Source: Solobacterium sp.
GTDB lineage: Bacteria; Bacillota_I; Bacilli_A; Erysipelotrichales; Erysipelotrichaceae
DNA length: 64,000 bases
Assembly: GCA_017469355.1 (NCBI GenBank)
Contig: JAFUGM010000062.1
Coordinates: 1 to 64,000 of the forward strand
Direction: 5' to 3'
In this document: positions 2,145-61,911 of the stretch, one piece after another
How positions within the stretch are numbered: position 1 is the stretch's first letter
Layout of the letters: every line of letters starts with the position of its first letter
Notes under the pieces: model-generated
Told to the model about the DNA's origin: nothing
What the model saw: only the letters and a program-made list of their open reading frames with translations
Databases searched by the model: none
Program-made: the position numbers and the translations under genes

Positions 2145-3722
2145 ATGGATCATATTCAATTACATGTAGTGATTTTCAGTGAGAATCCATCTTATATGGA
2201 ACTGTTTTCCAGAGCACGGAAGGAAGACAATGTGACGCTGGAGTTTGTTTCTGCAGGAGTGAATGAATCACCGGATATCGCTGTCTGGGAAGATGTTCTT
2301 ATCATCACGGATCATCTGGCATCATTGGATCCATATCTGAATGATACCCGTGCAGGAATACAAATGGTGTTTATCGGTGATGCTGGTGAGGTGGCAGATC
2401 GATTTGGAACAGAACTTCCAAACCGACTGGTGGAACTGTGGCCCTCGGGAGATCCGGATGTCATCCTGCTTCATCGGTTTGAGACACTTGTGGAGCGAAC
2501 AATCCGTATTTACAACAGTTGGCTGTATCATACCTGGCTGATGGCTACGATCGATACGATGCAGGATCTGGTCTGGTATAAGGATAAAGACGGTCTGCAT
2601 TGGCTTGTGAATAACAAATTTGAGAATACCGTACATAAAACAAGAGCGATGATTCATGGCATGGGACATAACTATATCTGGGATGTACCGCCGGAGGATG
2701 GCGGAAAGTCGGAGTTCCGGTGTCTGGAGTCTGAACGGGAAGTCATGGAGAAAAAGACGACCTGTGTATCGGATGAACATGTTCTTACGGATAAAGGCCT
2801 GCGTCATTTCCTGACATATAAGTCCCCACTGTATGGGCGGGATGGGGATGTCATGGGAACGGTTGGAATCGGCCATGACGTCACCGACCTCAACAACATC
2901 GGGATTGAGATGAAGATGTTATTGGAAAACCTTCCGTTTTCCATTGCGGTAGTGGAAGATGACTGGTCACCCGTTGAAATCAACTCCAGATTTGAACGGG
3001 AATTCGGTATACACAAGGATCAGGCATCGCTGTCCGAGTTTGACTACGCAGCCTGGAAAGCAGAGACATTTTCGCCAGTCAATGAGCGAACGTATGATGA
3101 GGAACTTCATGTATATTTACAGGAAGCTGAAGTGAACACCGGGAATACCAGAGAAGTGTTTGAAATCATGGAACAGGAGATTCTTGATTACTTCGGTAAT
3201 ATTTCAGGATATTACTGTCTGTTTCGCAATGTGACAATTGAGCGGGAATACGAATCCATGATTCTGAAGTTTGCCAATACAGATTCGCTGACCGAACTGT
3301 ATAACCGGAGGTACTTCTTTGAGTATATGCAGAACCATCGTCATGAACCGATGACGGTATTGTTTATGGATATGGATAACTTCAAGAGTGTAAATGATAC
3401 CTATGGTCATGCGGCAGGAGATGCGGTACTGAAAAAGACCGCGGAATTCATTCGAACTATCTATCCGGAGGCATTGGCTGCACGGCTTGGCGGGGATGAA
3501 TTTGCGGCATGCATTGTCGGGAACACGGATCTTGAGTCTGTAACGGAGCGGGCAGGAAAACTGCGCACTATGATCGAAGAGGAAAATGCACCCCTGAATC
3601 TCAATGTGTCCATCTCTACCGGAATTTCGATGAAGGATGGAAGAAGTGGGGATATTGATGCGTTCATCAATGAAAGTGATGAGCGGATGTATAAGGAAAA
3701 ACAGAAAAAGAAAACATCCTGA
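2145..3722 (+). CDS. diguanylate cyclase with N-terminal sensory regions
   Basis: A 525-residue soluble protein with no membrane segment. Residues 1-110 resemble a receiver-like or unknown input domain, 130-270 look like a PAS domain (DLVWYKDKDGLHWLVN is typical), 275-370 a second PAS-like region, and the C-terminus is a GGDEF domain with an intact RLGGDEF at 447-453. An intact signature predicts synthesis of c-di-GMP from two GTP. The upstream segment lacks the RxxD inhibitory site, so product inhibition may be weak. The gene is transcribed alone: terminators lie before and after it. The signal sensed cannot be read from the sequence. Confidence 0.9.
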   Translation: MDHIQLHVVIFSENPSYMELFSRARKEDNVTLEFVSAGVNESPDIAVWEDVLIITDHLASLDPYLNDTRAGIQMVFIGDAGEVADRFGTELPNRLVELWPSGDPDVILLHRFETLVERTIRIYNSWLYHTWLMATIDTMQDLVWYKDKDGLHWLVNNKFENTVHKTRAMIHGMGHNYIWDVPPEDGGKSEFRCLESEREVMEKKTTCVSDEHVLTDKGLRHFLTYKSPLYGRDGDVMGTVGIGHDVTDLNNIGIEMKMLLENLPFSIAVVEDDWSPVEINSRFEREFGIHKDQASLSEFDYAAWKAETFSPVNERTYDEELHVYLQEAEVNTGNTREVFEIMEQEILDYFGNISGYYCLFRNVTIEREYESMILKFANTDSLTELYNRRYFFEYMQNHRHEPMTVLFMDMDNFKSVNDTYGHAAGDAVLKKTAEFIRTIYPEALAARLGGDEFAACIVGNTDLESVTERAGKLRTMIEEENAPLNLNVSISTGISMKDGRSGDIDAFINESDERMYKEKQKKKTS

Positions 3723-6911: not shown

Positions 6912-9900
6912 ATGAGCGAAACAATGAAAATGAATAATTCGGAAGAAGTAAACAATATCCTCCGTGCTTTGACACTGGGGTTTGAAAGTATTTATACGGT
7001 AAACCTTTCGAATGGAAATTACACCGAGTACAGCTCCAAGGGGAACTATGACACGCTCAAAACGGAGCGCAGCGGCACAAACTTCTTTGAGGATACGATT
7101 CGTGATATTTCCCGAGTTGTCGCAGAGGAAGACCGGGAAGAGGTAAAGAAGATTTATGATCGGGAGAATATCCTGAAACAGACGGAAAATGACAATGTCT
7201 ATACTGCTTTCTATCATCTTCTGATTGATGGAAAGCCAGTTCGCTATTTTTCCAAATCTCTGGTGTTTAACGATGGGACGAAGAAGTTTCTTGTGATCGG
7301 TGTCGCTGAAGCCAGAGAAGAAAAGGAAACCGATCCTGCTTCTACCTCATTGTTTGCGAATATCGCTGGAATTCTCTCCAATGAGTTTGAGTCCATCTAT
7401 TATGTGGATAAAAACGATAATTCCTATGTGGAATATACGACTGCCGGTCCGTATGAATCATTGAAGATGGACCAGCCTGGTCATGACTTCTTTGAAGAAA
7501 CAGCGGCGAATATCAAACTCGTTGTTTTCTTCGAAGACCAGGAACGAGTGAAAGAAGCACTACAGAAGGAAACCCTTCTGAAGGCGATGGCGGATACCGG
7601 AAAATTTACGATGACCTATCGCCTCATCATCGATGGAAAGCCAACACACTATAAGCTGTCTGCACTGGAATCCGGCGCGGCGGATCCGAATCATATTATT
7701 ATCGGCGTCACAAATATCGAACAGGAAGTGACCAGCGAACTGCTTCGCAAGGAAGAAAATGAACGCTATGTCAGTTATGAAAGAATCGCGAAGTCTCTCG
7801 CAAAGGATTACTTCAGTATCTATTATGTCGATGCCAAGACCGGCTCCTTCATTGAATACAGTTCCCAGGAAGACTATCGCTCGATGAATATCGAGACCAG
7901 CGGTATTGATTTCTTCGGCCAGTCCCTGGTCAACGCGCAGCGTGTAGTTTACCCGGAGGATCTGGATGAGTTTATCGCGGTATTCTCCAAGGAAAACATC
8001 CTGCAGGAACTGGATAAAACCGGGAAATTCATGTTTCAGTACCGGATTGTCATTGATGATCAGCCGACCTATGTCAGCCTGAAGGCAATCCGCATGGAAG
8101 ATGATGATTCGCATATCGTCTTCGGTCTCAGTAATGTGGATGCGCAGAAGAAGCGTCAGATGGAGTTCGAAACAGCGCAGTTTGAACGCCTGACCTATGC
8201 GGCTGTGGCGGAATCCCTGGCGAAGGATTACTTCAGTATCTATTATGTGAATATCGAAACCGGTAAGTTCATTGAATACAGTTCTTCTGCGGAATATCAG
8301 GGTCTTCATATTGAAGAACAGGGAGATGACTTCTTTGCGAAGTCTATCGTTAACGCAACCCGTGTGGTTTACCCGGAAGATCTGAGAAACTTCCTGATTA
8401 CATTTACCAAAGACAACATCGTGCAGGGACTGGAACAGAACGGGAAGTTTACGATGACCTATCGTGTCATGGTAAATGGGGAACCGAATCATGTGAGTCT
8501 GAAGGTATCACGCATGGAAAACGACCCCAAGCATATTGTCATCGGTGTCAGTAACATCGAAGGGCAGGTGCGGCGTCAGGAACAGTATGAAAAAGCCGAA
8601 CATGAACGTCTTACCTTCGCTGGTGTGGCACAGTCACTTGCGGCGGACTACTTCAGTATCTATCACGTAAACATGGATACGAATCACTATACTGAGTATG
8701 GACCGGGAGCGGATAACGCAGGTCTTGAGGTTCGCAATGAAGGCGAAGATTTCTTCGTACAAACGATCATCGATGCGACCACAAGAGTCGTTCCGGAAGA
8801 CCTGACCAAGTTCCTGACCATCTTCACCAAGGATAATATCCGCAGGACAATAGATGAGGCCGGAAAGTTCACGATGGAATACCAGCTGCTCGTGGATGGT
8901 GTACCGACGCATGTTCTGTTAAAGGGAACCCGGATGGCTGGGGAAGAGAATGCGGTTGTATTCGGTGTCAGCAGTATTGACAGTCAGGTGCGGGCCCAGG
9001 AAGAGTTTGAAAAAGCACGTAAGGAAAACCTTACCTTCGCTTCCATCTCGCAGGCACTTGCGGCAGACTATTTCAGTATCTACTATGTCGATACCCTGGA
9101 TGATTCCTTTATGGAATACAGCTCCCATTCGGATTATGACAAACTGAACATTGAAAAGCAGGGACAGGATTTCTTTAATCTCAGCCGGAAGAACCTGTTG
9201 CGTGTGGTTTATCCGGAAGATCAGAACAAACTGCTCTCCGTCTTCACCAAACAGAATCTGTTAAGAGAACTTTCTCTGAATCCAACCTTTACCTTCAACT
9301 ACCGTCTGATGTTTGACGGCGTACCGACCTATGTCAGTATGAAGGCAACCCGGATGGAAGATAAGAATGACCGTCATATCGTTATCGGTGTAAACAACAT
9401 CGATGCGCAGATCCGTCGGGAAGAGGAATACGAAAAGGAACTCGGCACAGCCAGAGATATCGCTAACCGTGATTCCATGACCGGAGTCAAGAGTAAACAT
9501 GCATGGGGTGAAAAGGAAAAGGAAGTCAACGATTCCATCAAGGCTGGAACTTCCGATCCATTTGCGGTCATCGTATGTGATGTCAACGGACTGAAACATA
9601 TCAACGATACTTTGGGACATAAAGCAGGCGATGAATACATTCGCTCTGCCAGTGAACTCATCTGTAATGTCTTCAAGCACAGCCCGGTATTCCGTATCGG
9701 CGGTGATGAGTTTGTTGTATTACTGACAGGCAATGATTACCAGAATCGTGACGCATTGATGAATGAAATCAATGCCCGGGTGGAACATAATCAGGAAATT
9801 GGACGGGTGATTGTCGCAACCGGCATCTCCGACTTTGACGCCAATACGGACAGCGAACTCCAGAATGTGTTCCAACGGGCGGATGATCTGATGTATATCC

Positions 9901-20694: not shown

Positions 20695-20765
20695 TTGGGA
20701 ATCGTCCAATGGGAGGATGGCGGGCTTTGACCCCGACGATCCTGGTTCAAATCCAGGTTCCCGAA
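20695..20765 (+). tRNA. tRNA-Gln (UUG)
   Basis: The acceptor TTGGGAA pairs with TTCCCGA (one T-G pair), the T arm is CCTGG-TTCAAAT-CCAGG, and the anticodon loop CTTTGAC gives UUG. The first anticodon-stem pair (27-43) is a G-A mismatch and no 3' CCA is encoded. A GCGCC/GGCGC hairpin lies just upstream. Confidence 0.75.
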
Positions 20766-20775
20766 TCATTATGAT

Positions 20776-20849
20776 GTTGGCTTTGCGCAATGGAAGCGCA
20801 GCAGGCGATGACCCTGCTGGTATCAGTTCGATTCTGATAGGTCAACCCA
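20776..20849 (+). tRNA. tRNA-His-like gene with an aberrant anticodon loop
   Basis: An extra 5' G opposes C73 and CCA is encoded, the hallmarks of tRNA-His. Acceptor TTGGCTT/AGGTCAA, D stem GCGC/GCGC, anticodon stem GCAGG/CCTGC and T arm ATCAG/CTGAT all pair. The 7-base loop is CGATGAC, however, giving A-U-G at 34-36 with G instead of the near-universal U33, and position 9 seems missing. A normal loop would carry UGUG. It may be non-functional or specialised. Confidence 0.55.
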
Positions 20850-20852
20850 AAT

Positions 20853-20928
20853 GGATCTGGAGCTCAGTTGGTAGAGCGAAGGCCTGAAGTGCCCTGTGTC
20901 GGGAGTTCGATTCTCTCCGGATCCACCA
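20853..20928 (+). tRNA. tRNA-Phe-like (GAA)
   Basis: Acceptor GGATCTG/CGGATCC, D arm GCTC/GAGC, T arm GGGAG-TTCGATT-CTCTC, encoded CCA. The loop CTGAAGT gives GAA. G37 replaces the usual A37 and the anticodon stem contains one A-C mismatch. Confidence 0.65.
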
Positions 20929-20933
20929 CATAT

Positions 20934-21007
20934 TGCCTTGTCGTCTAATGGCAGGATACCTGGCTCTGAACCAGGTGATGAAAGTTCAAATCTTTCCAAG
21001 GCAGCCA
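20934..21007 (+). tRNA. tRNA-Gln (CUG)
   Basis: Perfect acceptor TGCCTTG/CAAGGCA, anticodon stem CCTGG/CCAGG with loop CTCTGAA giving CUG, T arm GAAAG-TTCAAAT-CTTTC, discriminator G and encoded CCA. A regular tRNA. Confidence 0.85.
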
Positions 21008-21009
21008 GA

Positions 21010-21063
21010 ATACACATGCTGTGTGTTCGAAAGGACTGGCACGTTCGAGTCCAGCCTTACCCA
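21010..21063 (+). other. tRNA-like remnant
   Basis: TTCGAGT (a T-loop) and a 3' CCA occur between two good tRNA genes, but the T stem pairs at only three of five positions and no matching 5' acceptor or D arm is present. Best read as a decayed tRNA gene. Confidence 0.35.
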
Positions 21064-21070
21064 TCGCTAT

Positions 21071-21144
21071 AGGAGCGTAGTTTAACGGAAAAACGCACGA
21101 TTGATAATCGTGTGATGCAAGTTCAACTCTTGCCGTTCCTACCA
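21071..21144 (+). tRNA. tRNA-Ile (GAU)
   Basis: Acceptor AGGAGCG/CGTTCCT, D stem GTTT/AAAC, anticodon stem CACGA/TCGTG with loop TTGATAA (GAU), T arm GCAAG-TTCAACT-CTTGC, A73 and encoded CCA. Confidence 0.75.
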
Positions 21145-21147
21145 TCT

Positions 21148-21225
21148 GGTTCTGTCGTATAACGGCTCATTATATCCGGTTGTCTCCCCTTCCGGAGGAT
21201 GAGGGTTCAACTCCCTCCAGAATCA
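21148..21225 (+). tRNA. tRNA-Asp-like gene with a 12-base anticodon loop
   Basis: Acceptor GGTTCTG/CAGAATC and T arm GAGGG-TTCAACT-CCCTC pair well. The anticodon stem TCCGG/CCGGA encloses 12 bases (TTGTCTCCCCTT) instead of 7, as if CCCTT were inserted after a normal GUC loop. No CCA encoded. Probably degenerate. Confidence 0.45.
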
Positions 21226-30438: not shown

Positions 30439-31565
30439 AGACGAGTGTGAGCTACAGGAAGAAGGAATTTCAGAAAGAGCTCAGGCGGGCGACATCTGGA
30501 TCCTCGGAGATCATCGACTCATGTGTGGTGACTCGACGAGTCCTGAAGATCTCCGACTGCTGACGGGGGGGGGAGTGGATGGACCTGGTATTCACAGATC
30601 CACCTTATGGCATGAGGAAACAAAAAGACGGAGTCGCCAATGACAACCAGAACTTCGACGACCTGCTGGAGTTCAACAAGAAATGGATCCCGTTAAGTTT
30701 CGATGCCCTCAAGGATACCGGATCATGGTATTGCTGGGGAATGGATCAACCGCTCATGGACATCTATGAGCACATCCTGAAACCATATATGAAGAGACAC
30801 GATGAAAAGAAGATCACTTTTCGGAACCTTCTGACATGGGACAAAGGGAACGGACAAGGACAGCTGTCTGCGCTCTTTCGGATGTATGCGATTGCTGACG
30901 AGAAGTGCCTGTTCGTGATGAAAGGTCGTCAGGATTACGGCCAGACACAAGAAGATTACTGGGAAGGCTTTGAACCTATTCGTCAGCACTTTGACGAAGA
31001 ACGAAAGAAGACGGGACTATCGACCGATAAACTCGTCGAGCTAGCTGGAGCCACATCCATCACTCATTGGTGGAGTAAGAGCCAGTGGATGTTCCCGAAC
31101 GAGGAACGATACCTGGCATATCGACAAGCACTCAGAAATGCCGGAATTCCCGGATTCCAGCAACCAGACGACGCGATCCGGCAAGAGTACGACGCGATCC
31201 GGCAAGAGTACGACGCGATCCGGCAAGAATGGTACAAGACACGCGCCTACTTCGATAACACCCACGACAACATGAACAACGTCTGGCACTTCATGAGAGT
31301 GAATGCCGGAACAGGAGAGTACAAGAGTGTCGGTGGACACGCAACGCCAAAACCGATCAAACTATGTGAGAGAGCGATCAAGACATCCTCCCGACCGGGC
31401 GAAATAGTTCTGGATCTTTTTGGAGGATCTGGCAGCACTCTGATCGCATGTGAGAATCTGCAACGACGCTGTTACATGATGGAGCTCATGCCGCACTGGT
31501 GCGATGTGATACTTCATCGCTGGGAGCAGCATACAGGCAAGACTGCCTATAAGGAGGAAATATGA
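30401..31565 (+). pseudogene. phage site-specific DNA methyltransferase, split at a nine-G run
   Basis: The first frame (30401-30643) has the N-terminus GDIWILGDHRLMCGDST typical of N4/N6 methyltransferases. At the G run 30565-30573 it goes out of frame. The second frame (30579-31565) begins MDLVFTDPPYGM with the DPPY catalytic motif and ends with the SAM motif LDLFGGSGSTLIACE. One G fewer, or two more, restores a single protein of about 390 residues. The second half contains three DAIRQEY heptads. A phage methyltransferase like this protects against restriction. It may be phase-variable, a true pseudogene, or a sequencing error in the run. Confidence 0.75.
31170..31232 (+). repeat. three 21-bp tandem repeats inside the methyltransferase
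   Basis: Units 31170-31190, 31191-31211 and 31212-31232 encode DAIRQEY, DAIRQEY and DAIRQEW. The first two are identical; the third differs near its end. Confidence 0.9.
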
Positions 31566-37938: not shown

Positions 37939-40175
37939 TGACAGATACAGAAATTCAAGAACTTCAGAGCGCTCTCGATGCCATTGATCCAGCCATGACT
38001 GACTATCAGACGTGGCTGGAGGTTGGCCAAGGAATTAAGGAGGCTGGCGGAGACGTCGGCATGTGGGATGCATGGTCAGCTCGTGATGGCGGTCGATACC
38101 ATCCGGGCGAGTGTGAGAAGAAGTGGAACAGTTTCCAGTCTGTCGGTATCACAAAGCGAACAGTCTTCGATCTGGCATATAAGAACGGATGGAGCTGGAA
38201 TACTTCGGACAACCATAAGGAAATCGGATGGAACGATCAGATTGGCGGAGATGACTACAAAGTCATCGACAAAGGCTGGATAGAAGTCGGAGACTTCAAG
38301 GAGCCGACAGATGCAGCATGGGACCCGATCGAAGACATCCGGAAGTACCTCTCTGTGATATTCGCTCCGGAAGACATCATCGGCTACAACACTAAAAGCT
38401 TATACGACGAGAAGGCCCAGAAATGGAAACCGGCAGACAAAGGAAACTTTGATCGCCCTGCTTCCTATTTTTTGGAGCAGCTCGCGAAAGCTCAAAAGGT
38501 TGAAGATGTATTCCTGGACTACGAACACGAGGCAGGTGCTTGGATCCGGTTCAATCCGCTGGATGGCCAAGGCGTGAACAATGTCAACGTCAGAGAGTTC
38601 AGATATGCACTTGTTGAGTCTGATAACATGCCGGTCGCGCAACAGGAAGCAGTCATCCGAGAGCTGGAGCTCCCGGTTGCTGCTCTTCTGTATTCCGGAG
38701 GGAAATCAATTCATGCAATTGTGCACATCGATGCCGACAGCTTCCCGGAATACAAGAAGCGCGTGGAATATCTCTATAACGTTTGCAAAAAGAACGGGAT
38801 GATCCTTGACGAACAGAACAAGAACCCGTCGAGATTGTCTCGCATGCCAGGCTTCGAACGTGGCAGCCATAAGCAGTTCCTCATCGATACAAACATCGGC
38901 AAGAGGAACTGGCAAGAGTGGGAGGAATGGATCGAAGGCGTCAACGATGATCTTCCAGACATTGAAAGCCTCGAGTCTGACTGGAATAACCTTCCACCAC
39001 TCAACGATGAGCTTATTTCCGGGCTGCTTCGGCAAGGGCACAAAATGCTCATCTCTGGCCCGTCAAAAGCTGGAAAATCATTCCTTCTGATCGCTCTGAC
39101 AATCGCCATCGCCGAAGGACGACCGTGGCTCGGACACGAGTGCGCTCAGGGAAAGGTCTTGTATGTCAATCTTGAGCTGGATAAGGCGTCATGCCTTCAT
39201 CGTTTTAAGGATGTCTATGACAGAGAGATGCTGACTCCAAACAATCTGAACAACATCAAGATCTGGAACCTCAGAGGCAAGACTGTCCCGATGGACAAAC
39301 TCGCGCCGAAGCTGATCCGGAGATGTCAAAAGGAAAAGTATATCGCCGTCATCATCGACCCGATCTACAAGGTCATTACCGGCGACGAAAACAGCGCCGA
39401 ACAGATGTCAAAGTTCTGTAACCAATTCGACAAAATAGCTACAGAAATGAATACAGCCGTGATCTACTGTCACCACCACAGCAAGGGCGCACAAGGTGGT
39501 AAGCGAGCGATGGACAGAGCATCCGGTTCCGGCGTATTCGCAAGAGACCCGGACGCACTTCTGGACCTCATTGAACTGGAAGTCGATGACTCGATCAGAA
39601 ATCGAAAGCGCAAGGAACTCGAGATGGAAACAGCCATCAAGTGGACTCCTGGATTCAGTCTGACGGGCTCCGATGCCAAGGATTACCAAAAGGTCATGGA
39701 GACATACTGGACGACAGCTCGAAGCTTCGGAACCGAAACACAGGCAGAGGAACGGATGAGAGGCGTCGCACGGAGATCAGAGCAAATGACGGCCTGGCGC
39801 GTGGATGCAACGCTTCGAGAGTTCGCAAAACCATCGCAGACTGACATGTGGTTCGACTTCCCAGTCCATGAGATGGACACTGGGATCCTGAAAGACGTCG
39901 TCCCGGAATCGGAGATGAGTCCACAGGAGATCGGATCGAAGAGAAACAAATCACAAAACAAAAAAGACAAGAGGAAGAATGACAGGCAGTCCAAACTGAA
40001 CATCGTTATGGGCAATCTGGCCATATCCGGAATCGAAGAACCGACTCTCAAAGAAGTGGCTGATCAGCTTCAAGTTTCGACAAAAACAGTCAGAAGTTAC
40101 ATCGAAGAGTCGGACGAATACACCGTCATCGGAGGAGAGAATGGAGAACCGTCGAGGGTGGGAAAAAGCCTGTAA
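37938..40175 (+). CDS. primase-helicase fusion protein
   Basis: 745 residues. The N-terminus looks like a PriCT-type helical domain (TDYQTWLEVGQGIKEAGGD). A primase-like core carries LYSGGKSIHAIVHIDA near 252-266, as in archaeo-eukaryotic primases of phages and plasmids. A RecA-like helicase domain has Walker A GPSKAGKSF (374-382) and VIIDPIYKV, and a C-terminal HTH reads TLKEVADQLQVSTKTVRSY. One polypeptide could prime and unwind at the origin. Candidate iterons begin at its 3' end. Confidence 0.82.
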   Translation: MTDTEIQELQSALDAIDPAMTDYQTWLEVGQGIKEAGGDVGMWDAWSARDGGRYHPGECEKKWNSFQSVGITKRTVFDLAYKNGWSWNTSDNHKEIGWNDQIGGDDYKVIDKGWIEVGDFKEPTDAAWDPIEDIRKYLSVIFAPEDIIGYNTKSLYDEKAQKWKPADKGNFDRPASYFLEQLAKAQKVEDVFLDYEHEAGAWIRFNPLDGQGVNNVNVREFRYALVESDNMPVAQQEAVIRELELPVAALLYSGGKSIHAIVHIDADSFPEYKKRVEYLYNVCKKNGMILDEQNKNPSRLSRMPGFERGSHKQFLIDTNIGKRNWQEWEEWIEGVNDDLPDIESLESDWNNLPPLNDELISGLLRQGHKMLISGPSKAGKSFLLIALTIAIAEGRPWLGHECAQGKVLYVNLELDKASCLHRFKDVYDREMLTPNNLNNIKIWNLRGKTVPMDKLAPKLIRRCQKEKYIAVIIDPIYKVITGDENSAEQMSKFCNQFDKIATEMNTAVIYCHHHSKGAQGGKRAMDRASGSGVFARDPDALLDLIELEVDDSIRNRKRKELEMETAIKWTPGFSLTGSDAKDYQKVMETYWTTARSFGTETQAEERMRGVARRSEQMTAWRVDATLREFAKPSQTDMWFDFPVHEMDTGILKDVVPESEMSPQEIGSKRNKSQNKKDKRKNDRQSKLNIVMGNLAISGIEEPTLKEVADQLQVSTKTVRSYIEESDEYTVIGGENGEPSRVGKSL

Positions 40176-40262
40176 TTCAGAGATTTTCTTCCCGGGAAGA
40201 AAAAGCCTGATTTTCAGACATTTTCCCGGGAAGAAAAAGCCTGTATATAAATATAAAAATTA
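40160..40262. repeat. iteron-like repeats, candidate replication origin
   Basis: TTCCCGGGAAGAAAAAGCCTG occurs in full at 40189-40209 and 40223-40243. A shortened copy (GGGAAAAAGCCTG) starts near 40163 and a half copy (TTCTTCCC) ends the block. An A/T-only stretch follows at about 40245-40264. Adjacent to the primase-helicase gene. Confidence 0.5.
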
Positions 40263-41671: not shown

Positions 41672-41698
41672 AATAGAGAAAGCAACAACGAGGTGATA

Positions 41699-42133
41699 AT
41701 GACAATAACACACGACGATTTGAGACAATATCAAAACCGGAAGATGTCCATCCAGAGCATGCAAGACGAGAAGGAGTGGATCTATGGAAAAGTATCCAGC
41801 CCGAACGGGAGACAGACGACCGGAGGATTCAGCAGCTCTCCGAGTGATCCGACAGCGATGAAAGTCCGGAGAGTTGAAAAGCTGGACAACATGATTCGAG
41901 AGAAACAAGAGCTTCAGCTCAGGTGTGAGCAATACGTGGATGACCTTCCGGATGGAAAGCTCAAGCTAGCGCTTCGGTACCGCTACATCCTTGGATGGAC
42001 ATGGGAGTCCACTGCTCAGAGGATAAACGGATCGACGTCTTATCAGTCACTGATCAAGATGGTGAACGGTCACTTCGATGCTCAATCTCCGAAGGTGCCG
42101 AGTTACAAAAGGACACAGTTTGACACCCTTTGA
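41699..42133 (+). CDS. DUF1492 late transcription regulator (sigma-70 region 4-like)
   Basis: 144 residues. An N-terminal helical part is followed by ALRYRYILGWTWESTAQR and STSYQSLIKMVN, the sigma region-4-like helix-turn-helix of DUF1492/ArpU-type phage activators that switch on late genes. It is the last gene of the early block. Its own 3' end contains the first repeats of the 10-bp array, so the protein probably acts there. Confidence 0.78.
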   Translation: MTITHDDLRQYQNRKMSIQSMQDEKEWIYGKVSSPNGRQTTGGFSSSPSDPTAMKVRRVEKLDNMIREKQELQLRCEQYVDDLPDGKLKLALRYRYILGWTWESTAQRINGSTSYQSLIKMVNGHFDAQSPKVPSYKRTQFDTL

Positions 42134-42170
42134 CACCTTAGAACACAAAAGAACACAGTTCGACACGTTG
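42111..42170 (+). repeat. six 10-bp phased repeats (xgACACxxxx)
   Basis: Six consecutive 10-bp units carry ACAC at positions 3-6: ggACACagtt, tgACACcctt, tgACACctta, gaACACaaaa, gaACACagtt, cgACACgttg. They straddle the end of the DUF1492 gene and run straight into the -35 box of a promoter. A spacing of one helical turn puts all copies on one DNA face. Confidence 0.7.
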
Positions 42171-42195
42171 CAATACTTCGACGGTACTGTATAGT
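42168..42195 (+). promoter_or_regulatory. candidate late promoter
   Basis: TTGCAA (42168-42173), 16-bp spacer, TATAGT (42190-42195), abutting the repeat array and ahead of the packaging genes. Confidence 0.6.
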
Positions 42196-42210
42196 ATAAG
42201 CTGTCAAAGA

Positions 42211-42243
42211 AAAACACGAAGGATCCCCCTCCTCGTGTTTTTT
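42211..42243 (+). terminator. terminator 15 bp behind the late promoter
   Basis: AAACACGA pairs with TCGTGTTT, followed by T residues. It ends early transcripts and/or must be passed by late transcripts. Confidence 0.75.
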
Positions 42244-42255
42244 CAGTTTTGGCGT

Positions 42256-42301
42256 GAGAGCCACCTGTTCTCCCTGTGACAGCATCTGCCGAGTGGCTCT
42301 C
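42256..42301 (+). promoter_or_regulatory. long stem-loop in the late leader
   Basis: GAGAGCCAC and GTGGCTCTC form a 9-bp stem around 28 bases that contain an inner CTG/CAG pairing. A structured untranslated RNA before the late genes. Confidence 0.5.
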
Positions 42302-42524: not shown

Positions 42525-42899
42525 ATGGAGGAATGGCAGAAAGCAGGAAGGCGGATCTACACAGATGAACAGAGAAAAACTGGCGCATGGGTGAGATCCA
42601 TATCCTCGGAATCAAAAAGAGGAAAACGAGCATTCTATCACACAAAAGAGTGGACACGAAAAAGAAGACAGATTCTCGAACGTGATCACTTCATGTGCCA
42701 GAAATGTCGACAAAAAAAACCAGCGGTTTACACGCGAGCGAACACAGTTCATCACATAAAGCACTTAAACGACGAACCAGAGCTCGCGCTAACTGACAGC
42801 AATCTGATCAGCTTGTGCTCAGCGTGCCACGATGGGGAACATCCTGAAAGACATTACAACGGCGCGGGCAGAGAATATCGAAACGTCGAGAGATGGTGA
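42525..42899 (+). CDS. HNH endonuclease
   Basis: 124 residues. CQKCRQKKPAVYTRANTVHHIKH and LISLCSACHDGEHPERH form the beta-beta-alpha metal finger with two CxxC pairs and the HH nuclease centre. HNH proteins next to terminase genes help with DNA cutting during packaging of cos-type phages. Confidence 0.9.
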   Translation: MEEWQKAGRRIYTDEQRKTGAWVRSISSESKRGKRAFYHTKEWTRKRRQILERDHFMCQKCRQKKPAVYTRANTVHHIKHLNDEPELALTDSNLISLCSACHDGEHPERHYNGAGREYRNVERW

Positions 42900-43005: not shown

Positions 43006-43434
43006 ATGGCAAAACCGGCAGAAAAAAAGAAAAAAACGTCAAAAGCCACGGCCGTCAAAAAGACGGTTCGCAAAGCTGTCCCGAAAAAGAAACAGCCAAC
43101 AGCTAAAGAGAAAGCCTTGAAAGCTGAACGCGATCAAGTACAAAGCGCATTGATCGAAGCTCTGAAAGCAAAGGGAGCGGACACAGCTCTCTACCGTGAC
43201 CAGATCGAGAAGTACATAGATCTGTGGGACATGTACGCCCTTCTGGCTGAAGACGTCAGAGTGAACGGTCTCAGATATCCTACAGAATCTCCGAGCGGCG
43301 CGACTGTCATCAAAGACAATCCTTCTGTCAAAAATCTTGCCGGTGTCAACAAACAGATGCTTATGCAGCTGAAGATGCTCGACCTTCTGGACTTCAAGTC
43401 GATGGCGCTGCCGGAGGAAGAGGAAGAGCTTTGA
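43006..43434 (+). CDS. terminase small subunit (P27-like)
   Basis: 142 residues. A very basic N-terminal tail of about 35 residues, then the helical core of P27-type small terminases (ALYRDQIEKYIDLWDMYALL), and an acidic C-terminus. It recognises phage DNA for packaging. Located between HNH and TerL as usual. Confidence 0.82.
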   Translation: MAKPAEKKKKTSKATAVKKTVRKAVPKKKQPTAKEKALKAERDQVQSALIEALKAKGADTALYRDQIEKYIDLWDMYALLAEDVRVNGLRYPTESPSGATVIKDNPSVKNLAGVNKQMLMQLKMLDLLDFKSMALPEEEEEL

Positions 43435-43437
43435 TGA

Positions 43438-45129
43438 ATGGCATATAAGCACAACAAGTACATCGATGCGTGGATTGATCTGGTCATGAACGACAAGATC
43501 AGATCCTGCCATGACCAGAAGCGGATGATAAAAAACAATCTGATTCCGGTGCTCGAACGTGACGATGTGGTAGTTGATAACGATCTCATAGAGCACGGAC
43601 TCAGTCTCCAAAAGTATTTCCCTTTTCAGCTGATTCACTGGGAGCTCTTCCAGTTCGCTGTCATAGCCGGTGTTTTTTTGATCCGGTCAGACGGCAGCCG
43701 GGACATATATTTCCACGAGATCCGTGACATCATGGGGAGAGGATCCGGGAAAAACGGTTTCATTGATTTCCTGGCGTTCTACTTTTTGTCGCCGATCCAC
43801 GGGATCAGAAACTACAACATCGATTTGATAGCTAACGGAGAAGATCAGGCAGCCACATCCATCGCAGACCTCAGTGAGCTGATCAAGCATCCTGTTGATC
43901 CAAAGTATGAGAAAGTCTTGAGACAGAACTACAAGGCACGCGTTGAAAGCGTGACGGGCATCAAGACGAACAGCGTCTTCCGTTTGAATACGACGTCGAC
44001 GAAGAACAAGGACTCGAAACGAACTGGCTGTGTCATTTATGACGAGAAGCATGAGTACGAATCGACGACCAATATGAACACGCTCCAGTCCGGTCTCGGA
44101 AAGATTCCGCACGATCGGATCATAACCATCACGACCGACGGACGAATTAGAGACGGGGTCCTTGATCGTGAGAAAGCTCAGAACGACGACATTCTGAGCG
44201 CATACAATCCGAACAACCGGATATTCGTGAACTACTTCCACATCGAAAAGGAAGAGGAATGGAATGATCTGGCTGCGCTCGAAAAAGCTATCCCGTCTTT
44301 GAATCACCCGAGCTTCTATTCTCTGAAAGATGTGATCACTCGAGAAATCGAAGACATGCCATCGAAACCGGACTACTTCCCGGAGTTCATGTCGAAACGA
44401 TGCAATTTCCCAATCAGCAATCCAGAAACGGCAGTCGCTGAATGGGATGACATTGTTGCGTGCGAAAGTGATCCACCGTTCGAGATTGAAGAAGGAATGT
44501 CGTGCATTGTCGGAATTGATTTCTCGAAAACGAACGACTTTGTCGGGTGCGTGGCCACATTCCGGAAAGATGATCAGTACGCTATCAAACATCACAGCTT
44601 CATCTGTTCGAAGTCTTCAGATCTGTCTCAGATCAAAGCACCGCTTGAAGAGTGGCAGAAAAAGGGCTACCTCACGGTCGTGGATGAAGTTGAGATCTCT
44701 CCGGCGTTGGTAGCTGCTTGGATCAAATCGATCCAGGAGCACTATGTGATAGCAATGCTGACGGTCGACTCGTTTCGGTATTCGATACTCAGCTCCGAGC
44801 TGAGAGATCTCGGATTTGACGGGACAAAACCAAAAGATGAGAAGAACCTGTGGCTTGTTAGAAATTCAGACATCATGAAGGCTGCACCGTTAATCAATTC
44901 GTTGTTCCTATCACATCGCCTTCACGGTTTCGATCGGATGATGTGCTGGTACACGAACAACACGAAGCAGATCATTGATGCAAAAGGCAACATCACATAC
45001 GGCAAGATCAACAAACGCGTCAGAAAAACAGACGGCTTCATGGCTTTCGTTGGGACGATGTGCTGCGTTGATTCACTGCCAGTCACAAACGAATTTCCTG
45101 ACATCGATATCGGTGTCATTACTTACTAG
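43438..45129 (+). CDS. terminase large subunit
   Basis: 563 residues. An ATPase domain with GRGSGKN at 100-106 and VIYDEKHEYES as Walker B, and a C-terminal RNase H-like nuclease with VGIDFSKTNDFVG and later acidic residues. It powers DNA translocation into the prohead and cuts the concatemer. Confidence 0.92.
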   Translation: MAYKHNKYIDAWIDLVMNDKIRSCHDQKRMIKNNLIPVLERDDVVVDNDLIEHGLSLQKYFPFQLIHWELFQFAVIAGVFLIRSDGSRDIYFHEIRDIMGRGSGKNGFIDFLAFYFLSPIHGIRNYNIDLIANGEDQAATSIADLSELIKHPVDPKYEKVLRQNYKARVESVTGIKTNSVFRLNTTSTKNKDSKRTGCVIYDEKHEYESTTNMNTLQSGLGKIPHDRIITITTDGRIRDGVLDREKAQNDDILSAYNPNNRIFVNYFHIEKEEEWNDLAALEKAIPSLNHPSFYSLKDVITREIEDMPSKPDYFPEFMSKRCNFPISNPETAVAEWDDIVACESDPPFEIEEGMSCIVGIDFSKTNDFVGCVATFRKDDQYAIKHHSFICSKSSDLSQIKAPLEEWQKKGYLTVVDEVEISPALVAAWIKSIQEHYVIAMLTVDSFRYSILSSELRDLGFDGTKPKDEKNLWLVRNSDIMKAAPLINSLFLSHRLHGFDRMMCWYTNNTKQIIDAKGNITYGKINKRVRKTDGFMAFVGTMCCVDSLPVTNEFPDIDIGVITY

Positions 45130-59055: not shown

Positions 59056-60321
59056 ATGGCTCAAACACTAACAGATAGAGAAAAAGCGCTGAACCATGAG
59101 GATGGCTTAGGCATCATCGAACAGCTGGCTAACATATCCGACAGGATCGGGAAAGAATCCAGTGACAAGATCTGGCATCACGGCTTCAAGCGCAACAACG
59201 CAGACGGAAATCCGGCAACTCGGATCTCTCCGCTTTTCGACACGGTGAACGTGGCTCCCGCGTACATGGACTACACAAACGGTGTGTTTGTGCCAGGCGG
59301 ATGGCAGTGGCTGATTGACAAGTTTTATCCGGTCATGGTCAACATGGACGGGACGGAAGCCTACAGGCTTAACAAGTTCAATCACAAGCTGAAAGAGAAC
59401 GGTGAAGCATCCGACGCTTTCAACATCGACAGCGACCTGAATGCGATGTCATGCCTCACTGAGAGGGTCTATAGAAAACATTATGAAGTTGGTGATGTGG
59501 AATACTTCGAGTTCTCAAACGTGAAGCTCGACGATGATTTCCATTGTGACGCTTTCGTCCGAAATAATAAGACAATCGCCAGCAAAGCATACTTCCCGAT
59601 GTTCAAAGGTCAGATCGACTCCAAGGGACGGCTCAGATCCATCGGTGGACAGGCACTAAATACAAACACGACCGCGACGGCAGAAGTGGCTGCCGCTACC
59701 GCCATGGGCGAACAGTTCTCGATCTGGGATCTCTCACACAGGACTCTGATTGAAGAGCTCCTGATCCTCATGAGTATGTGTGACAATGTCCAGCTCTCAT
59801 ACGGCCAAGGACAAACATCCGGATATGTTAACGACGCAAGCCAGAACTATGGACACCGCGCGACCGGAACACTCTTTGACAAGGGCCCGTTTTTCGGGTT
59901 CTCCGACACAACTCACGAGATCAAAGCTTTCTACATTGAAGGTCTCTGGGGAAATCGCTGGGATAGAGTTCTCGGGTGTGTTCTCGTCAATGACGTGCTG
60001 AAGTGCAAAGCTAGCGGTCCTTACAATCTGACGGGTGAAGGATATACCGAAGTCGGAATCACCCTTCCGGCTAATGGCTGGCAGAAAGAAACACAGAACA
60101 CACGCTTCGGCTCATTTCCGAAAGAAGTCGGCGGTTCAGACAGCACATACATCTGCGACTATTGGTACAAAAATGCCAGCGGCACTAGGGTGCTGATTGG
60201 CGGTGGCGACTGCTACTCTGGCTCGTTCTGCGGTCGCTACTGGCACCTCGCCTCTGCGGCTTCCCACGCGGCCTGGACCGTCGGGGCGTCGCTTCTTCTT
60301 GAACAACCTGAAGAGGCGTAG
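59056..60321 (+). CDS. DGR target protein, tail tip receptor-binding candidate
   Basis: 421 residues behind AGGAGG. The N-terminal 360 residues are a fibre body; the C-terminal 60 residues form the C-type-lectin-like region with the ending GRYWHLASAASHAAWTVGAS. The codons 385 to 414 hold the variable repeat: residues 385, 387, 388, 391, 395, 397, 399, 400, 404, 406, 408, 409 and 414 differ from the template-encoded residues only through adenine changes. It is the terminal tail gene, so variation should alter receptor recognition. Confidence 0.9.
   Translation: MAQTLTDREKALNHEDGLGIIEQLANISDRIGKESSDKIWHHGFKRNNADGNPATRISPLFDTVNVAPAYMDYTNGVFVPGGWQWLIDKFYPVMVNMDGTEAYRLNKFNHKLKENGEASDAFNIDSDLNAMSCLTERVYRKHYEVGDVEYFEFSNVKLDDDFHCDAFVRNNKTIASKAYFPMFKGQIDSKGRLRSIGGQALNTNTTATAEVAAATAMGEQFSIWDLSHRTLIEELLILMSMCDNVQLSYGQGQTSGYVNDASQNYGHRATGTLFDKGPFFGFSDTTHEIKAFYIEGLWGNRWDRVLGCVLVNDVLKCKASGPYNLTGEGYTEVGITLPANGWQKETQNTRFGSFPKEVGGSDSTYICDYWYKNASGTRVLIGGGDCYSGSFCGRYWHLASAASHAAWTVGASLLLEQPEEA
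60190..60300 (+). repeat. DGR variable repeat (VR)
   Basis: Aligned to the template 273 bp downstream, positions 60201-60295 differ at 20 sites, every one an adenine in the template; six template adenines are unchanged and no other base differs inside this stretch. The 13-bp TCGGGGCGTCGCT part near the 3' end is unchanged in both copies, as an initiation-of-mutagenic-homology-like end. At both flanks (60200 and 60296) non-adenine differences begin, marking the limits. Confidence 0.93.
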
Positions 60322-60334
60322 CCTCGCAGGGGGT

Positions 60335-60354
60335 TCGGGGGATTTATCCCCCGA
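60335..60354. promoter_or_regulatory. GC-rich hairpin downstream of VR
   Basis: TCGGGGG (60335-60341) and CCCCCGA (60348-60354) pair perfectly around ATTTAT, beginning 14 bp after the target stop codon. In the Bordetella phage DGR a GC-rich hairpin just after VR is needed for efficient retrohoming. A smaller GAGGC/GCCTC hairpin lies over the stop codon at 60313-60325. Confidence 0.7.
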
Positions 60355-60462
60355 CTGGTTCAAAATTCGATTTTTCAATATAGCAAACAACAAGCAACAG
60401 AAACGGAGCAGAACAGCTTCAGCGGTTTAAGGCTGCGCTGCTCCCGGTCTTCCTCGTTTTGA

Positions 60463-60573
60463 GTGCTGATTGTCGGTGGCAACTGCAACAATGGCTCGAA
60501 ATGCGGTCGCAACTGGAACCTCAACAATGCGGCTTCCAACGCGAACTGGAACATCGGGGCGTCGCTAACTCTT
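60463..60573 (+). repeat. DGR template repeat (TR)
   Basis: 111 bp, adenine-rich, with ten AAC/AAT codons in the reading frame of the target. It begins right after an in-frame TGA (60460-60462) and its frame stays open to a TGA at 60610, so TR looks like a copy of a target gene end. It is non-coding in function: the RNA is the template for the mutagenic cDNA. Confidence 0.92.
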
Positions 60574-60714
60574 ACAAAAGCCAGCAAAAAAACAAGCTGG
60601 AGGTATATATGATGATCAAATGCAACCTTAAATCGTTACCTCTTGGTAAAAATTACCGCAACAGGATCGGGTGAGTAAGAGTGATCTCAAAACCCGGTAG
60701 GTGATAAGAAGAAA
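60574..60714 (+). ncRNA. DGR spacer RNA between TR and RT
   Basis: The spacer contains alternating TTACC, GGTAA, TTACC elements (60636-60657) that can form two mutually exclusive hairpins, and a GGAGG-led ATG at 60609 opening 21 codons. In known DGRs the RNA downstream of TR folds and binds the RT complex to prime cDNA. Assigned by position. Confidence 0.5.
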
Positions 60715-61911
60715 GTGAAATCTTATAACAACCTGTACAACAAACTGCTTGATAAGGACTATATTGAGGAGAGATTCTATAACGCAAGCAAACGAAAGCG
60801 GAGACGCAGAGACGTCCGGAACATTCTCGAAAATATCAGCAAGCACATAGACATCGTCTACGAGATGATGCTCAACGAATCATGGCAACCGACACGCGGA
60901 AAGCGATCCATCATAAACGAATCGAGTTCGAAGAAGATCAGGATCATCGAGAAACCGAACTATGCATATGATCAGGTAATCCATCACATGTTCGTGGGTG
61001 TGTTCGCTCCGATTGTCATGCATGGATTCTACGATTTCTCGTGCGGAAGTATTCCGGATCGTGGTGTTCACTATGGCAAGAAGTTCATCCAGCGGTGGAT
61101 CTATGAATATGTCAAAAGACGACGAAGATTCTATGTCCTGAAGCTAGACATCCGGCACTTCTACGCTTCCATCGATCGTAAGCGATTGAAGGAAATGCTC
61201 CGGAAGGATATCCGCGACGATAGATTCTACCACCTGGCATGCAAAATCATTGATTTCGACGGCGACCTGAATGGGAAAGGACTCCCGCTCGGGTTTTATA
61301 CGTCGCAGTGGCTCGCGAACTATTACCTCAAACGGTTCGATCATTTCGTTAAGCAAAAGCTGAAAGCGCAGAAGTATATGCGATACGTTGACGACATGGT
61401 GGTCTTCGGAACGAACAAACGAGAGCTTCACAGAATGCTCCGAGCAATCGAAGAAGAACTCAGAGATAGCTACGAACTAACCGTCAAGGACAACTGGCAA
61501 GTCTTCATGTTTGAAGACGGCCGTGGTCATGGCCGGGCTCTGGATTTCCTTGGCTTCGTGTTTCATCGTGATCGCGTTACAATTCGGAAGTCAACGTTGA
61601 GATCCGCTAGGAGAAAAGCAAACAAGATCTGGAAAGTCGGGTGGCCAACATGGTACTCAGCTTCTCAGATGCTCTCACATTGTGGTTGGTTCAGACATGC
61701 CGATGCGTATCAATATTTCAAGAATCACATCCTCACAAAAGTTAACATCCGGAGACTCCGGAAAGTGGTGTCAAAGCACTCAAGAAAGGAAGCATATGAA
61801 AGACTGGCACGAAGCTATATCGGACGACAGTCCAAAACTCATCGACCTGACGACATCCCCGACAACAGTCTATCTTCGCAAAAACGTCCAGAAGAAAAAC
61901 GTCAAGGATGA
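60715..61911 (+). CDS. DGR reverse transcriptase
   Basis: 398 residues from a GTG start. Motif A LDIRHFY (D145), motif 4 PLGFYTSQW with S197-Q198 (the DGR-type SQ, where group II introns have SP), motif C YVDD (224-227), and the thumb region with DFLGFVFHRD and HCGWFRHADAY. No maturase or endonuclease domain. It copies TR RNA with errors at adenines. Its last 116 bases overlap the next gene. Confidence 0.93.
   Translation: MKSYNNLYNKLLDKDYIEERFYNASKRKRRRRDVRNILENISKHIDIVYEMMLNESWQPTRGKRSIINESSSKKIRIIEKPNYAYDQVIHHMFVGVFAPIVMHGFYDFSCGSIPDRGVHYGKKFIQRWIYEYVKRRRRFYVLKLDIRHFYASIDRKRLKEMLRKDIRDDRFYHLACKIIDFDGDLNGKGLPLGFYTSQWLANYYLKRFDHFVKQKLKAQKYMRYVDDMVVFGTNKRELHRMLRAIEEELRDSYELTVKDNWQVFMFEDGRGHGRALDFLGFVFHRDRVTIRKSTLRSARRKANKIWKVGWPTWYSASQMLSHCGWFRHADAYQYFKNHILTKVNIRRLRKVVSKHSRKEAYERLARSYIGRQSKTHRPDDIPDNSLSSQKRPEEKRQG

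Follow-up and report, generated by a model that had tools for sequence, protein, structure and literature searches.

Few late switches are known from phages of Gram-positive bacteria, and each has its own imperfect repeats. In phi13, the late promoter is lost when the repeats in the 3' end of ltr are deleted, and a stop mutation in ltr likewise abolishes late promoter activity (PMC13123087). For TP901-1, the same source cites binding of Alt to four imperfect direct repeats between -76 and -32 (PMC13123087). Here we compare these switches with an array of six decamers sharing the tetramer ACAC at 42113-42172 of a 64,000-nucleotide window (contig JAFUGM010000062.1, assembly GCA_017469355.1, Solobacterium sp.), which straddles the stop codon of a candidate late-activator gene, called the regulator gene below (41699-42133, plus strand, 144 amino acids; ATG at 41699, with GTG at 41693 as a possible start). 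Because of the analogy with the phi13 and TP901-1 experiments, we read the array as a late-promoter operator to which the protein encoded by the overlapped gene very probably binds.

As in the window, the repeats of the Staphylococcus aureus phages phi13 and PVL, whose Ltr belongs to Ltr family IV, begin in the 3' end of the gene and extend to the promoter (P23) for the endonuclease, terS and terL. Their core, GGACACA/GTACA, is similar to that of the window, whereas their period is 9 bp rather than 10 bp: among the phi13-type ltr regions examined (L120-L177), 28 of 29 unique regions had their best lag at 9 bp. The phi13 repeats were published as 18-bp units (PMC13123087), each of which is better read as two 9-bp units, since relatives such as L165 and L170 (ATCGTACAAATCGTACAAATCGTACAAATCGTACACATCGGAC) have plain 9-bp repeats. 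Alt of the Lactococcus phage TP901-1 (DUF722, phrog_2198) also has its gene before the late promoter and an operator of the same type, with direct repeats of core GACACG/GGCACG, but these are spaced by 11 bp, or by 10 bp in certain relatives, and are fewer than in the window. Homology of the phi13 Ltr (phrog_1058) to the window's regulator was not detectable, and the idea that the window family, Alt and phi13 Ltr form one family by sequence was dropped, as direct homology was tested and not found. RinA of the S. aureus phage phi11 matches phrog_36, as the window's regulator does. Its gene lies directly before terS and is followed by a short direct repeat, TGGCAGT, of which two copies about 11 bp apart are visible by eye, compared with six at 10 bp in the window; direct alignment of the single RinA sequence with the window profile is weak. 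Direct repeats about one helical turn apart also replace the -35 element in the pho boxes of Escherichia coli, where tandem PhoB dimers contact the sigma factor; PhoB is a response regulator with a winged helix and 11-bp repeats, and is unrelated to the window's regulator. Ltr operators are therefore a known kind of site, and what is new here is the exact one-turn phasing locked to the -10 hexamer.

All six ACAC decamers reported in the earlier note are present, with ACAC beginning every 10 bp at 42113, 42123, 42133, 42143, 42153 and 42163, and the array straddles the regulator stop as that note had described. In order, the copies read AGGACACAGT, TTGACACCCT, TTGACACCTT, AGAACACAAA, AGAACACAGT and TCGACACGTT; the ACAC columns are invariant and the remaining six columns variable. 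On the plus strand, repeat 1 (ACACAGTTTG, 42113-42122) lies within the final codons of the regulator gene, repeat 2 (ACACCCTTTG, 42123-42132) extends from them into the stop codon, and the first base of repeat 3 (ACACCTTAGA, 42133-42142) is the last base of the TGA stop at 42131-42133. Repeats 4 (ACACAAAAGA, 42143-42152) and 5 (ACACAGTTCG, 42153-42162) follow, and repeat 6 (ACACGTTGCA, 42163-42172) reaches the -35 zone. A degraded seventh copy (ATACTTCGAC, 42173-42182, plus strand) keeps the register with ATAC at 42173, where relatives have CACC or CACA. The array is the sole run of at least four exact tetramers at a fixed period in the window (periods of 6-20 bp scanned); 40 first-order Markov simulations of 64 kb averaged 0.075 four-copy runs each, with no run of five or more, and the four-copy pattern does not occur a second time in the 2.69-Mb genome. 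Self-matching at lag 10 in 70-nt windows has its peak for the whole window at 42111. TTGACA is present twice within the array, and the stretches 42105-42126 (copies 1-2) and 42145-42166 (copies 5-6), 40 bp apart, are 91% alike over 22 nt.

The regulator gene was found in three viral contigs at 52-55% identity overall, and the array, whose presence in relatives the earlier note had proposed as a check, is present in all three of these closest relatives with its register to the -10 unchanged. Each shows a 10-bp rhythm from the stop to a -10-like hexamer, with no indel relative to the -10. Counted in the relatives alone, 49 pooled ACAC matches fell at -10-anchored positions compared to 18-46 at the other nine phases, and none of 2000 shuffles reached 49; the second-best phase is a 2-bp shift, as expected of a dinucleotide repeat. 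The relatives are 50-68% identical to the window in the core columns and 29-34% in the other columns, and the non-core bases of their arrays do not align with those of the window. L002 and L003 are near copies, so that roughly two lineages apart from the window are independent. A search of isolated phages for close relatives gave one weak match only, in a Fusobacterium phage, and a search of genome contigs gave no relatives. The RACAC array was found among 293 related genomes only in the window's genome and in one unrelated tandem repeat, and therefore the exact ACAC version is confined to the window's phage lineage within the host group.

We also scanned IMG/VR for RACAC occurring four times at 10-bp spacing without using protein information, which returned at least 120 stretches. 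Hidden Markov models (HMMs) of the window family and of DUF1492, built without the tested open reading frames (ORFs), were then compared with ORFs of at least 80 amino acids. Among the matches listed (120 loci), 9 of 3146 ORFs in 1.08 Mb matched a family HMM; seven of these nine end no more than 49 nt from the array on the same strand, and an eighth, L226 (2264-2790), overlaps an array that reads GTGT rather than ACAC on the coding strand, a site that may be used in the opposite orientation. The array thus adjoins the regulator family, with eight of nine family ORFs among the matches listed lying within 50 nt of it. Copies in L331, L325 and L327 lie 18, 28, 38 and further nucleotides upstream of a -10-like hexamer, and those in the window and L004 lie 27 or 37 nt and further upstream of the -10, so that proteins of low similarity share the same helix face relative to the -10 (7-8 bases modulo 10). 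Many of the pattern matches are satellites or coding repeats, which we did not take for operators. Six loci (L227, L254, L264, L280, L334 and L340) have GACACC decamers in long open frames, followed by CATACTCATACTC repeats, and were set aside as coding. As a separate observation, a DUF6362 gene (PF19889, E-value 8e-32) on the minus strand of L329, with its stop at reverse-complement position 7505, overlaps at its 3' end an AACAC array of 10-bp period, which may be an operator of this kind serving a different regulator family.

The earlier note had also suggested looking for the array behind DUF1492 genes of other phages. Among true DUF1492 loci of phages and prophages in the host class, 6 of the 28 scored (L353, L364, L366, L370, L371 and L380) are followed by an array of 10-bp period that is clearly significant (p=0.005 each), so that the expectation is borne out for these loci, though not as a universal layout. 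In the host genus, relatives of the window gene have another motif behind them, TGTCC(A/G)C, repeated every 9 or 10 bp, with three decamers in L024 and two to three 9-mers in L020, L023, L025 and L033; L026 has eight decamers by eye, yet p=0.067. Most distant phrog_36 proteins of the host genus are without a significant array, and therefore a phrog_36 match does not by itself imply the layout; many of these distant matches are probably other sigma-4-like proteins. The motif varies with the regulator clade, being ACAC in the window, TGTCC in the host-genus relatives, and TGATACC and others behind DUF1492 genes. The layout is therefore common but not universal, and its motif changes with the regulator. 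The register rule did not clearly extend to the DUF1492 arrays of other motifs, where the -10 is ambiguous.

The -10 hexamer of the late promoter, TATAGT (42190-42195, plus strand), stands in the same register in the relatives. The best consensus promoter pairs it with TTGCAA (4/6) across a 16-bp spacer, a match of which one is expected by chance in the scanned stretch. The claim that the array ends in a -35 box therefore stands only in part: the last copies do lie in the -35 zone, but the weak TTGCAA is not a good -35 element, and it is more accurate to describe a promoter that lacks one and whose -35 zone is taken up by the last copies. A TG one base before the -10 is typical of promoters with weak -35 elements. 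By eye, it is seen in several promoters of the group and is absent from that of the window.

The regulator is small (144 amino acids, within the range of about 130-150) and basic (isoelectric point 9.35), as are Ltr-type regulators, and several of its relatives are acidic. It matches phrog_36, annotated as transcriptional regulator, with an E-value of 4e-12, and phi11 RinA matches the same profile at 2e-38. Region 4 of the host's sigma-70 factors (RpoD) is matched by the phrog_36 profile as well, which is consistent with a related helix-turn-helix in the regulator. Profile-profile comparison aligned the regulator family with true DUF1492 proteins over 141 columns at 98.6% probability (P 6.4e-16), and gave no match to DUF722. 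The DUF1492 label given earlier to the regulator thus holds at the level of the superfamily and not as Pfam membership. An AlphaFold model (mean predicted local distance difference test score, pLDDT, 82.7) has a long N-terminal helical hairpin and a C-terminal three-helix domain, in which a helix-turn-helix is predicted; viral structural neighbours of the model are annotated as transcriptional regulator, DUF1492 and sigma-70 region 4.

Arrays in the relatives, beside family members in the protein-blind search and behind some DUF1492 genes all support the earlier proposal of a phased operator for a late activator encoded by the overlapped gene. By analogy with the studied switches, the regulator would bind the array, oligomerise or bind cooperatively, contact RNA polymerase and activate transcription. 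Several copies of the regulator would sit side by side on one face of the DNA, with one helix-turn-helix per 10-bp turn, and the N-terminal helical hairpins might hold neighbouring copies together. The most downstream copies would occupy the -35 position with their phase to the -10 fixed, so that the bound regulator could recruit host RNA polymerase to a promoter without a good -35 box and switch on the operon of HNH, terS, terL and capsid genes.

Several observations weigh against this reading. The close relatives number three only, with L002 and L003 near copies, and several members of the wider family have only two copies or no significant array. The -10 hexamers were picked by eye, and the choice may be somewhat biased. 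The regulator has no match to Pfam DUF1492 (PF07374; gathering score 21.5 bits) at an E-value of 0.1 or better, and its score against DUF722, the family of TP901-1 Alt, is below the cut-off (13.5 compared to 29.8 bits, E-value 0.084). No homology between it and the experimentally studied activators, Alt and phi13 Ltr, was detectable, and the best PDB matches of its model, SigD4 and SigE4 (sigma region 4), have E-values of 1.1 or worse.

If the array were instead the operator of another protein, whether a host regulator or a different phage protein, its place behind the regulator gene would merely reflect the location of the late promoter. Such a promoter could take input from several regulators, but arrays found without protein information adjoin the same regulator family in unrelated phages, and the motif changes with the regulator clade, as expected of regulator-operator co-evolution; we regard this alternative as distinctly unlikely. 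Growth of a functionless satellite by replication slippage would account for the 91% likeness of copies 1-2 and 5-6, from which it follows that part of the array arose by duplication, and for the company of the many plain satellites among the protein-blind pattern matches. Slippage by itself does not explain why ACAC is kept in six copies despite differing flanks, why the relatives retain core and register between unrelated flanks, or why remote relatives keep one and the same phase to the -10, and as the whole explanation it is highly improbable.

That the repeats are a site for packaging (cos/pac), terminase binding or iteron-type replication, and not a promoter element, would suit their location upstream of HNH, terS and terL, where such sites lie in some phages. 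The annotated cos of PVL lies about 1 kb downstream of its repeats, however, and the repeats of phi13 are required for promoter activity (PMC13123087), which makes this role very unlikely as well. The first two copies are translated (SYKRTQFDTL), as they would be if the repeats encoded a repetitive C-terminal peptide of the regulator. This explanation has almost no probability left, because the 10-bp period shifts the reading frame at each copy, four of the six copies are at or beyond the stop, and most copies in L002 and L003 are past it; continuation of such a peptide beyond the stop is refuted for copies 3-6. An operator of the late promoter served by the overlapped gene remains our preferred reading.

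With the phasing rule, late promoters and their regulators could be located from the DNA sequence alone; the rule also predicts that promoter activity is lost on half-turn insertions. A layout common to phi13 Ltr, Alt and RinA/DUF1492, families without detectable homology, raises the question of whether they share a fold and a contact with RNA polymerase.

On the 3' side of the array are a small membrane-type ORF and then, all on the plus strand, genes for an HNH endonuclease, a late gene (42525-42899; PF01844, E-value 1.5e-10), the small terminase subunit (43006-43434; PF05119, E-value 9.9e-6; phrog_5110, E-value 8e-21) and the large terminase subunit (43438-45129; PF20441, E-value 2.6e-14), with a Clp-type protease and an HK97-type capsid gene further on. 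Given this gene content, the early genes of a tailed phage meet its late genes at the array locus.

Directly after the presumed late start site lies a terminator-like hairpin followed by a U-tract (42210-42242, plus strand; 0 of 100 shuffles as good, leader z-score -2.98). Folding places a second leader hairpin, GAGAGCCAC ... GTGGCTCTC, at 42256-42301 on the same strand; the terminator-like hairpin followed by a second one of GAGAGC..GCTCTC type is widespread in relatives. Within 200 nt of the stop, 14 of 17 leaders have a hairpin matched by no more than 3 of 100 simulated sequences, the weakest hairpins being those of L021 (3 of 100), L026 (11) and TP901-1 (22). The mean folding z-score was -2.8 in 14 family leaders compared to -0.15 for stretches inside the same genes. 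No Rfam model matched the leader hairpins. Newly noted here is that, in most of the relatives examined, the late transcript begins with a terminator-like hairpin. This hairpin may serve to terminate early transcripts, to stabilise the late RNA or to protect its 5' end, or it may call for antitermination; attenuation is a further possible form of late-gene control. Because the hairpin stands at this position here and in most relatives, we also considered a regulator that would act as a row of sigma-region-4-like domains on tandem -35-like sites and, in addition, as a Q-like antiterminator past the leader hairpin, a combination that we think rather unlikely. A terminator-like hairpin with a U-tract, and the second hairpin after it, were also seen just behind the regulator gene in L018 (about 2959-3040), L020, L021, L023, L006, L024 and L033.

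Elsewhere in the window, tandem repeats occur at 31168-31228 (21-nt unit, 2.9 copies, 100% identical) and 40162-40245 (34-nt unit, 2.4 copies), and five tRNA genes are clustered at 20695-21225. A candidate diversity-generating retroelement spans 59056-61911. It includes a reverse transcriptase gene (60715-61911; RVT_1, E-value 8.5e-13), an RT-18 RNA matched by Rfam (60637-60711), and two 111-nt direct repeats, 80% identical, at 60190-60300 (the end of the gene at 59056-60321) and 60463-60573.
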